From Serratia liquefaciens ATCC 27592 (lineage in GTDB: Bacteria > Pseudomonadota > Gammaproteobacteria > Enterobacterales > Enterobacteriaceae): DNA of 64,000 bases. The stretch lies in NCBI RefSeq assembly GCF_000422085.1, contig NC_021741.1, forward strand, positions 1,488,001 through 1,552,000, in the 5' to 3' direction. A program made the position numbers and the translations under genes. Below, piece by piece: positions 51,673 through 54,551 of the stretch. The notes beneath the pieces were generated by a model that was not told where the DNA came from, did no database searches, and saw only the letters and a list, made by a program, of their open reading frames with translations. Numbering within the stretch: the stretch's first letter is position 1; each line of letters starts with the position of its first letter.

Positions 51673-52581
51673 ATGATTAAGCATTGGCGACGCGACGCCG
51701 CACTGAAGGCGATGCCGACAATCGATCCTAACGCAGTACGAACGCCGTGGCATGAATTCTGGCGGCGTTTCCGTCAGCAACGCGTGGCGCTGGTCGCTGC
51801 GCTATTGGTGTTACTGTTGGTGGTTGCTGCGCTGCTGGCACCCTACCTGGTTCCCTTTGACGCGGAAAATTATTTTGATTACGACCGCCTGAACGAAGGG
51901 CCTTCGCTGATGCATTGGCTGGGGGTGGATTCGCTGGGGCGGGACATTTTCAGCCGCATTCTGATGGGGACCCGTATTTCGCTGGCCGCCGGGGTGTTCT
52001 CGGTGCTGGTGGGTGGGCTGATCGGTACGCTGCTGGGGCTGCTGGCGGGCTATTACGAAGGCTGGTGGGATCGCATTACCATGCGTATCTGTGATGTGCT
52101 GTTCGCCTTTCCGGGCATTCTGCTGGCGATCGGCGTGGTGGCGATTATGGGCAGCGGCATGGCCAACGTGATTATCGCCGTGGCCATTTTCAGCATACCG
52201 GCATTCGCCCGATTGGTACGGGGCAACACCCTGGTGTTGAAGCATCTGACCTACATCGAGTCGGCACGCAGCATTGGCGCGTCAGACTGGACCATTATCA
52301 TGCGGCATATTCTGCCGGGGACAATTTCGTCGATTGTGGTGTATTTTACCCTGCGTATCGGTACTTCAATCATCACCGCCGCCAGCCTGTCGTTCCTCGG
52401 GCTGGGTGCCCAGCCGCCAACGCCGGAATGGGGCGCGATGCTCAATGAAGCGCGGGCGGATATGGTGATCGCGCCGCATGTCGCGATTTTCCCGAGTCTG
52501 GCAATATTCATCACGGTGTTGGCGTTTAACCTGCTGGGGGATGGCTTGCGCGATGCGTTGGATCCGAAGTTGAAGGGATAA
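51673..52581 (+). CDS. gsiD: Glutathione transport permease GsiD
   Basis: 302 aa, DppC-type permease. Six membrane helices; [20 protein letters not shown] and the EAA loop [20 protein letters not shown] are visible. Last gene of the iaaA-gsiABCD operon. Only 27 bases separate its stop from the small frameshifted membrane-protein gene, which has its own strong ribosome binding site and may be read on the same transcript. Confidence 0.95.
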
Positions 52582-52608: not shown

Positions 52609-52835
52609 ATGAGCCATATCAGTAAAAAGGGAATTAAAACAGGCATGCTGATTTACATCATCACCTATCTGGGGGGCTCAGCCTGGTACGCAATTCGTCG
52701 CTTCTGGTAGCCTACCCCGATATCAGCTATGTCGATGTGGTTATTGGTCTACTGGTGTATTTTGGTATCTGGAAGGTCTGTAACCTGATGCAAGCTTTTT
52801 ACCGCTGGTATAACGGCATCGAGAATGTTTCATGA
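52609..52835 (+). pseudogene. Small membrane protein, immunity-like, frameshifted in a G tract
   Basis: An ATG at 52609 follows AAGGAG (52597-52602). As written the frame stops at 52710 after 33 residues (MSHISKKGIKTGML...). At 52671-52676 there are six G; with seven the frame runs on to the TGA at 52833 and gives 75 aa with two hydrophobic segments and the tail ISYVDVVIGLLVYFGIWKV, FYRWYNGIENVS. This tail is clearly related to the protein at 53456-53647 (shared SYVD, FG, K-V, FY-W-NG-E pattern). It thus looks like a second bacteriocin immunity protein, either broken, recently mutated or misread. Confidence 0.65.
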
Positions 52836-53096
52836 TCTTTAGCGTGAGAGAAGGCTAACGTACCGGATAAGATGAATTTATCTCAAGGTTAATACGCTAA
52901 GTTTTTAGTGTTCTATTAAATTGAGTCTTTTAGTGTTGTCGGTTAATAACCGAAGAATACATGATTAACCTATTGCTCTCGTCACGTTTTTACTAAATAA
53001 AATTTGTATTTTACTTTCGCAATTATATTATCACTATGGTTGCCCAATATGTTTGTTTGTGAGGATTTAATAACTTTAATTCATGGAGTGAATAAT
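52836..53096. promoter_or_regulatory. AT-rich promoter region of the putative microcin gene
   Basis: Distinctly richer in A/T than the flanking gsi and frm genes, with no gene. It contains a small CGGTT-AAT-AACCG hairpin (52940-52952) and many T/A runs. The composition suggests recent acquisition. No specific regulator site (for example a Fur box) was recognised. Confidence 0.45.
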
Positions 53097-53429
53097 ATGG
53101 CTATTCGTGAGTTAACATCACAGGATCTTGATCTAATTTCTGGCGGAAACGCTGACTCCGGTTATGAAGGTCGGGGGGATGGCTGTGGTCACTATGGTGG
53201 AGCACCGAATACCTGCGCGAACCAAGTGGGGAGTAAAATTATTCTGGGTGCGATCGGGGGAGCGATACGAAGGCCAGGTCATCCGGCCTTAATGGTGGTT
53301 GGTGCTATTATGGGGGGAATGAAGGCGGCAATATCCTGTAAGGATAATAACCCGCAAAGAGGGGGGCGGCAGGATGCTTTGGGTGGAAATAATAGCCCTA
53401 ATAGTGTGAATGGTCAGTGCCGTTGGTAA
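53097..53429 (+). CDS. Putative class II microcin precursor with double-glycine leader
   Basis: 110 aa from the ATG at 53097 (GGAG eight bases upstream); the longer frame from 53004 is rejected because it would hide the leader. The first 17 residues, MAIRELTSQDLDLISGG, are a typical double-glycine leader (REL..., hydrophobic positions, GG cleavage). The 93-residue mature part has four Cys (mature positions 13, 23, 64, 91), a Gly-rich membrane-active stretch (GSKIILGAIGGAIRR, VVGAIMGGMKAA) and a hydrophilic C-terminus ending QCRW. This resembles microcins V, L and N in layout, without recognisable identity in the mature part. A small membrane protein follows after 26 bases. Three six-G tracts lie in the gene, so the C-terminus depends on correct base calls. 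Confidence 0.72.
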   Translation: MAIRELTSQDLDLISGGNADSGYEGRGDGCGHYGGAPNTCANQVGSKIILGAIGGAIRRPGHPALMVVGAIMGGMKAAISCKDNNPQRGGRQDALGGNNSPNSVNGQCRW

Positions 53430-53455
53430 TATCCACCGCATCAATGGAATATCAA

Positions 53456-53647
53456 ATGAAAGATGTTATATATGTCGCTTTATGGATATGGATATCATTT
53501 GATTTAATTCAATACTCTTCACTGGCCATTATGAAACCTCATAATAGCTATGTGGATATTGCCGTGGCGGTTTTCGCCTTTTTTGGCGTGAAGGCGGTAC
53601 TGACTTCTGTTGAGAATTTTTATTATTGGTTTAATGGCCGGGAATAA
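53456..53647 (+). CDS. Putative microcin immunity protein, small membrane protein
   Basis: 63 aa from the ATG at 53456 (GGA upstream; the ATG at 53444 and a GTG at 53417 are in-frame alternatives). Two hydrophobic segments (about 3-24 and 34-52) and a short polar end (NFYYWFNGRE). It follows the putative microcin by 26 bases and precedes a strong terminator, the usual place of an immunity gene. It is a paralogue of the frameshifted protein at 52609-52835. No known immunity family is recognised by eye. Confidence 0.6.
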   Translation: MKDVIYVALWIWISFDLIQYSSLAIMKPHNSYVDIAVAVFAFFGVKAVLTSVENFYYWFNGRE

Positions 53648-53654
53648 GCAGTCG

Positions 53655-53705
53655 CCGTAATAAGTGCTTGCGATAGCGATTATCGCAAGCACTGTTACGG
53701 TTTTA
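53655..53705. terminator. Terminator closing the microcin locus
   Basis: AGTGCTTGCGATA (53663-53675) pairs perfectly with TATCGCAAGCACT (53681-53693), extended by CCGTAA/TTACGG outside, then TTTTAT. It lies between the immunity candidate and convergent fghA. Confidence 0.92.
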
Positions 53706-53708
53706 TGA

Positions 53709-54551
53709 TCAGCGGAACAGATGTTCGGCGTGGAAGCGCAGATGGTCTTCGATAAAGCTGGCGATGGTAAAGTAGCTGTGATCGTAGCCCGGCTGAATGC
53801 GCAGGATCAGCGGCCAGTCGCGCTGGCGTGCCAGCTCGGCCAGTTTTGCCGGCTGCAGTTGATCTGCCAGGAACTGATCGTCGTCACCTTGGTCCACCAA
53901 TACCGGCATTTTTTCCGCGCCGTTGGCCAGCAGGTGGCAACTGTCATACTGCAGCCACTGGCTTTCGTCGTCGCCCAAATAGGCGGCAAAGGCTTTACGT
54001 CCCCAGGGCACCTGACAGGGATTGACGATCGGCGCAAACGCCGATACCGACCGGAAGCGCTGGGGATTGCGGAACGCCATCATCAGTGCGCCGTGGCCGC
54101 CCATGGAATGGCCGAAAATCGACTGGCGCTCGCTGACGCTGAAATGCTGGTTGATCAACGCCGGCAGCTCATCGCTAATGTAGTCGTACATGCGAAAATG
54201 CTTGTCCCACGGTGCTTGGGTGGCATTCAGATAGAAGCCTGCGCCCTGGCCCAAATCGTAGCCTTCATCATTCGGCACATCGTCGCCGCGCGGGCTGGTG
54301 TCGGCCATCACCAATACCAGTCCCAGCTCGGCGGCGATACGCTGCGCACCGGCCTTCAGCGTGAAGTTTTCGTCATTGCAGGTCAGCCCCGACAGCCAGT
54401 ACAGCACCGGCGGCGGGTTATCATCGCGCGGTGGCGGCAGATAGATGCTGAAAGTCATGTTGCAATTCAGGCTCTGCGCCGCATGGCGGTAACGCTGTTG
54501 CCAGCCGCCAAACATGCGGTGCTCTTCGAGAAGTTCTAATGACAAGGTCAT
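53709..54551 (-). CDS. fghA: S-formylglutathione hydrolase
   Basis: 280 aa, esterase D family alpha/beta-hydrolase. Nucleophile Ser in [11 protein letters not shown]; the family blocks [20 protein letters not shown] and [20 protein letters not shown]; catalytic His near [17 protein letters not shown]. It hydrolyses S-formylglutathione to formate and glutathione, the second step of formaldehyde detoxification. It lies 14 bases downstream of frmA in one operon. The E. coli homologues are FrmB and YeiG. Confidence 0.93.

Follow-up and report, generated by a model that had tools for sequence, protein, structure and literature searches.

The window, i.e., the whole 64,000-base stretch of DNA analysed here (G000:C1:1488001–1552000), belongs to a Serratia genome of 5,282,719 bases in two contigs. 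Between gsiD, which ends at position 52581, and fghA, which lies on the opposite strand and ends at 53709, there is a gap of 1,133 bases (last sense codon to last sense codon). It holds, in this order, a broken immunity-like gene, an AT-rich region, a gene for a predicted microcin precursor of 110 aa, a gene for a two-helix protein of 63 aa, and a hairpin. GsiD and FghA are 99.7% and 99.6% identical, respectively, to the proteins of a Serratia liquefaciens metagenome-assembled genome (MAG; L011). The GC content varies from 0.30 to 0.54 across the stretch, compared with mostly 0.55–0.62 in the flanking operons (250-base windows). Given that the same gap spans just 49 and 52 bases in two congeneric genomes (G002 and G003), we interpret the microcin stretch as an insertion, as did the preliminary description of this DNA, which had proposed an AT-rich insertion between conserved operons.

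The first gene of the gap (52609–52835, forward strand) was recognised from the ORF list, BLAST of its pieces, tblastn against relatives, and the translation of an intact relative. It consists of two pieces (52609–52710 and 52737–52835) split by a frameshift, the second of which matches the 63-aa protein (31% identity over 29 aa, E = 2e-6). Intact copies of 75 aa are present in G007 (L034:5499–5726) and G006 (L051:5534–5761). The preliminary description had set the start of the locus at 52609; this position turns out to be the start of a second immunity-like gene that it had overlooked, frame-broken here and intact in these two genomes. The AT-rich region that follows (52836–53096, forward strand) is the putative leader/promoter region of the microcin gene, based on its GC content and a mean column identity of 92% with two relatives. 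No Rfam family was found in it at the gathering threshold, and a structured RNA was rejected on this ground. At the other end of the gap, where the immunity gene and fghA converge, there is a hairpin (53654–53701, no strand assigned). Its folding energy (−31.8 kcal/mol, z = −6.7) supports the strong stem of what had been called a perfect terminator, but the T run is short (TTTTA only) and the hairpin is absent from the output of the terminator scan, so we consider it a probable terminator. In G002 and G003, the short gaps of 49 and 52 bases contain a different hairpin.

The precursor gene (53097–53429, forward strand) begins with a leader of 17 residues, MAIRELTSQDLDLISGG (53097–53147), that ends in GG and whose length lies within the range used for class IIa (an N-terminal double-glycine leader of 15–18 residues). 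The leader assignment is backed by an alignment with the MccS-operon peptide P0026 and by a motif control: EL[TS]..[DE][LIM]..[IVL][SAG]G[GA] occurs once in the six frames of the window and in none of 100 first-order Markov copies. The 110-aa ORF with a double-glycine leader, as initially reported, is thus present, and its leader motif is unique in the window. Cleavage after GG would yield a mature peptide of 93 aa (53148–53426) starting NADSGYEG, with 22% Gly and a calculated mass of 9,350 Da. For the precursor, Pfam PF10439 (Bacteriocin_IIc) scored 15 bits, below its gathering cut-off of 27.1, and NCBIfam gave nothing above cut-off; the structure model was unusable (pLDDT 43.6).

Cysteines are found at precursor residues 30, 40, 81, and 108. 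The four that had been described for the mature peptide are therefore all there, but Cys30 is private to this strain (compared with 12 alignment rows and G007), and relatives with the same core keep the other three. Owing to Cys30, the four cysteines could mispair in this strain. The C-terminal residues 93–110 (53373–53426) form a conserved tail ending in NSVNGQCRW, which we propose as a receptor/uptake module by analogy with the published layout of such peptides. All 12 alignment rows contain NSVNGQ, which is followed by C[R]W in the 11 rows other than P0008, where Y replaces C; of the 20 loci read, 19 contain it as well, L052 being without it. The form NSVNGQC[RH]W is common to relatives with quite different cores. 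A class IIb microcin was rejected, as the precursor has no Gly/Ser-rich siderophore-attachment tail.

The preliminary description had suggested searching for homologues. Among ~5.8 billion proteins, 11 protein clusters homologous to the microcin were found (P0001 being the window's own protein or a near-identical one), with a conserved mature region, and six clusters homologous to the 63-aa protein. The microcin family is present in 13 of 30 congeneric genomes; a family-wide search at E 1e-4 gave matches in 11 of 295 genomes, two belonging to the same genus. Substitutions were counted against G007, which has the same genes at the same site and in the same order. Between the two precursors there are 19.5 synonymous changes and 9.5 non-synonymous ones (dN/dS = 0.13), and dN/dS is 0.12 for the immunity gene and 0.01–0.03 for four flanking genes. 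Both ORFs (53097–53429 and 53456–53647) are real and under purifying selection, and a chance ORF was rejected given this selection and the homologues. The dS of the precursor against G007 (0.30) is higher than those of gsiD (0.21), the immunity gene (0.11), and fghA (0.09), which may reflect recombination.

These data also bear on whether the allele of this strain is a decayed or silent copy within a real microcin family. Such a copy could account for the private Cys30, the broken upstream immunity-like gene, and the absence of a linked exporter, and a sister genome does have an internally deleted precursor. However, the frame, leader, core, and tail are all intact here, a GGAG lies 8 bases upstream of the ATG, and the precursor dN/dS is that of a gene under constraint. 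In addition, the related McpM tolerates the loss of its third and fourth cysteines (PMC5311971, excerpt), and unlinked exporters are usual among these relatives. We consider an inactive allele unlikely.

The 63-aa ORF (53456–53647, forward strand) starts 26 bases past the microcin ORF and has two hydrophobic segments, in line with the small two-helix membrane protein initially described there. It was predicted to fold as a two-helix hairpin (mean pLDDT 70). Its homologues, selection, and fold model, and the way in which it tracks the core of the peptide, make it the candidate for the cognate immunity protein.

To see this tracking, distances between immunity proteins were compared with those between the parts of their peptides in 14 loci. 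The Mantel correlation was highest for the core (r = 0.85, partial 0.74), followed by the leader (0.71, partial 0.53) and the tail (0.49, partial −0.16); the loci are related, and the p value overstates their independence. The 14 pairs were drawn from 20 loci, omitting L040, which is nearly the same as L038, L039, and L041, and five loci without a nameable immunity ORF (L005, L047, L048, L049, and L050, the last of which has a downstream 67-aa ORF). The first of two tandem immunity ORFs was used for L046 and the upstream candidate for L044 and L045, L052 was kept despite its different tail, and where several ORF starts were possible the one giving the leader was taken. Immunity tracking the core most closely is what one would predict for a peptide that kills through its core and an immunity protein matched to that core. 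Class II microcins are described as having an N-terminal antibacterial part and a C-terminal uptake part (PMC13101503; PMC13174018, excerpt), though one background sentence in the excerpt of PMC13174018 gives the reverse order. In G020, two tandem and similar immunity-like genes follow a single microcin (L046:5487–5888).

Some relatives (the proteins P0010 and P0011 and the loci L044 and L045) share with the window peptide the end of the leader, the stretch NADSGYEGRG, and the tail, but have another core, and L044 and L045 have another immunity candidate as well. A different core and a different immunity candidate together with the same tail fit module swapping. According to the preliminary description, homologues that kept the leader without conservation of the mature region would speak against a microcin. 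P0010 and P0011 are partly of this kind in having another core, but their tail is kept, and the immunity candidate differs at L044 and L045.

To place the site in a broader context, we profiled the gsiD–fghA gap in the 26 of 30 congeneric genomes (one per species) in which fghA was found. At least one of ccdAB, an immunity-like gene, and a microcin was detected in 20 gaps and none of them in six, including that of G011, which has 1,226 bases of other content. Matches to ccdA and ccdB were found in 15 of the 26 genomes, in every case between gsiD and fghA, with an incomplete ccdB match in G018, G023, and G029; Pfam confirmed CcdA and CcdB for G006 (L051:4817–5364). The ccdA/ccdB genes at the gap are of two sequence types (loci L075–L097). 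An immunity-like gene was present in nine gaps (a partial match in G023) and a microcin in three, of which the G006 copy is internally deleted. An intact microcin is thus missing from seven of the nine gaps that carry an immunity-like gene. In four of the seven (G017–G020) the gene is 62–67% identical to the immunity protein of the window, and family members are found elsewhere with other partners. In G006, the microcin (L051:6024–6157) has lost its core and retains leader and tail, and both immunity-like genes are intact, suggesting that the killer was dispensable; it is possible that G006 is a resistant non-producer of this peptide. In the same gap, the 3′ end of gsiD is repeated (L051:5411–5503; 31 codons, 81% identical) between ccdAB and the immunity gene, perhaps a trace of cassette entry by recombination at gsiD.

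We tentatively suggest, with somewhat less than even confidence, that poison-antidote cassettes, whether a microcin with its immunity gene, an immunity gene by itself, or ccdAB, are exchanged at this gap in Serratia, and that stranded immunity genes are kept as protection against mosaic microcins in which the docking tail is shared and the killing core varies. If true, the lone genes of G017–G020 (S. proteamaculans/quinivorans-like) would confer resistance to this very peptide, and the site would be one where stranded immunity genes can be paired with the peptides they should resist.

The distribution of these genes is also informative on whether the peptide kills at all. It could instead be a secreted double-glycine-leader peptide without diffusible killing activity, i.e., a surface glycine-zipper contact protein or a signal peptide. 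The Gly-rich mature part would suit a glycine zipper, the relative P0010 weakly matches glycine-zipper models (below cut-off), and a contact-killing glycine-zipper bacteriocin has been published for Caulobacter (PMC5380434, excerpt). Against this, different cores come with different immunity-like partners, both the peptide and the exporter resemble their MccS counterparts, and the presence of immunity-like genes without an intact peptide gene at the site, in seven of nine genomes, would suit antidotes but not a signalling gene. We regard a non-killing role as very unlikely.

No transporter genes lie in the window, as had been noticed before, and the preliminary description had proposed looking elsewhere in the genome for a peptidase-containing ABC exporter. 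The genome has a single C39 peptidase domain, in a 726-aa ABC protein (G000:C1, about 2,412,623–2,414,803) adjoining a 422-aa HlyD-family protein (L033), 871,613 bases (0.87 Mb) from the microcin and thus outside the window. This ABC protein resembles the MccS-operon exporter, with 61% identity over 338 residues to its first part (the stretch compared being that part alone). Two TolC-type matches in the genome exceed the family cut-off. Exporter genes are not clustered with the microcin here, a trait that is usual in class IIa and that we treat as usual rather than defining; some class II microcins are encoded away from their exporter genes (PMC13101503).

An orthologue of the exporter (≥78% identity) was detected in 10 of 30 congeners, i.e., in 9 of the 13 microcin-positive genomes and in 1 of the 17 negative ones (G003, which has the orthologue without the microcin family; Fisher p = 0.0004, inflated by kinship). 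The other four positive genomes have no orthologue but do have other C39 proteins, and some C39 match was found in all 13 positive and 11 of the 17 negative genomes. At 18 of the 20 places where the family occurs in Serratia there is no C39 gene within 3 kb, though three of the 18 (G017:C10, G018:C14, and G020:C13) are so close to a contig end (3 kb or less) that a neighbour could be missed; the remaining two places have one (G001 and G015).

Five plasmid records matched the family, and three were read, from Pantoea agglomerans (E = 2e-10), S. marcescens (E = 4e-5, over its second half), and Rahnella aceris (tail alone, E = 5). When read, the Rahnella peptide proved to begin with a leader and to carry NSVNGQCHW as its tail; NSVNGQC[RH]W is the ending of all three peptides. 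In all three records, exporter and HlyD/CvaA-type genes are within 5 kb of the microcin according to the record annotation, which ties the family to this export route even where the gene is detached, as here. The exporter of the window's genome could serve another peptide. In the Pantoea plasmid, a gene lying between exporter and microcin (L110:4202–4876) is annotated as the proteolytic subunit of a Clp protease. A close relative on a plasmid was rejected, the three matches at E 1e-3 all having <60% identity. A Rahnella plasmid also gave a DNA match of 71 bases. An exporter serving unlinked microcins would account for the failure of searches built on gene clusters to detect such loci.

Judged from its sequence, the locus very probably specifies a small antibacterial peptide for secretion, together with a membrane protein that protects the producer. 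More specifically, we estimate a probability of roughly 85% that its peptide is a class IIa microcin and a relative of MccS/MccPDI, with an adjacent immunity candidate and export in trans. The initial interpretation as a class II microcin with its immunity protein and with exporter genes elsewhere thus remains the best one, strengthened by the C39 exporter and the conserved mature region. The microcin would be expressed from the AT-rich region. Cleavage by the exporter would remove the leader behind Gly17, and the exporter, its HlyD partner, and TolC would together send out the 93-aa peptide; the exporter is apparently shared in trans, as seems to be so for most Serratia family members. Cys40 and Cys81, which are near the positions of the essential pair of MccPDI, would form a disulfide. 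The tail may dock on an outer-membrane receptor of related bacteria; OmpF is the receptor associated with the MccPDI/MccS group, from which the tail of the window peptide differs. The presumably helical, Gly-rich core would then damage the inner membrane, where in the producer the 63-aa protein would block it. The broken upstream gene would once have encoded a further immunity protein, probably directed at a sister allele.

The locus had been labelled undescribed. This holds for the sequence, as a literature search found no match to the strings NSVNGQC and VNGQCRW in the body text of 5.39 million papers (supplements being outside its scope), but not for the kind, because class II microcins of S. 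marcescens have been published, with 93 unique putative sequences, of which 17 were active (PMC13101503, 2026). Relatives of the window peptide may be among these 93. The S. marcescens microcins (SM001–SM080; PMC13101503) are likewise from Serratia and have a double-glycine leader, no siderophore tail, and small immunity proteins, most of the potential ones being unannotated; some are also encoded away from the exporter. They differ in species and sequence. Hybrid candidates from Erwinia/Pantoea (PMC13174018, excerpt) similarly show apparently recombined core and tail modules and a conserved Cys near the C-terminus, but their cores resemble MccH47, whereas that of the window resembles MccS/PDI.

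For comparison with MccS itself, its gene was located via the primers printed in PMC3316575 (excerpt), which matched 82 plasmid records, two of which were read. In E. coli FAM21845, the precursor (P0026) has 120 aa and is accompanied by a CAAX-type protein of 216 aa (PF02517), a HlyD-type protein, and an ABC transporter with a peptidase domain; a Citrobacter record has the same precursor and CAAX protein, followed by insertion sequences. We infer that the FAM21845 genes are the MccS operon, since the primers match and a review gives 216 aa as the size of the MccS immunity protein (PMC10233263, excerpt). The same excerpt reports MccS to be 80% identical to MccPDI. The window peptide shares 38% identity with P0026 over 89 aligned positions comprising leader, spacer, and core (hhalign 97.2%). 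The cysteines of P0026 (57/90/109/118) have the positions reported for McpM, in which inhibition depends on the first two but not on the others (PMC5311971, excerpt). Cys40 of the window peptide aligns with Cys57 of P0026, and Cys81 is two alignment columns off Cys90. A second cleavage site at G35/A36 is reported for McpM, and the window peptide also has Gly35-Ala36 (53199–53204), with the same residue numbers, where cleavage is putative; the GAP motif is kept in most members with this core.

The locus shares with MccS/MccPDI an IREL.. leader, an NA[DN]S.YEG spacer, a core with a CAN-V motif, a GGP-like turn, and two cysteines (the second offset as described), a V-G-C near the C-terminus, and an exporter similar over the half compared. 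It differs in that its tail is another one, just loosely like that of MccS, and in that the microcin is chromosomal and without a linked exporter. Its immunity candidate, the 63-aa two-helix protein without a Pfam match, is by its sequence of a different type from the 216-aa CAAX-type protein of this closest characterised relative. A Rahnella plasmid peptide (P0027, L112:4719–5057) joins both ends in one molecule, with the MccS-like start NANSNYEGG behind the leader, as in P0026, and the family tail NSVNGQCHW, and so bridges the MccS-like and Serratia groups. The locus would extend MccS/MccPDI-type microcins, with another type of immunity, to a chromosomal setting in a near relative of S. liquefaciens within Serratia, and its relatives, with one tail and many cores, would be a natural peptide set useful for separating receptor from target.
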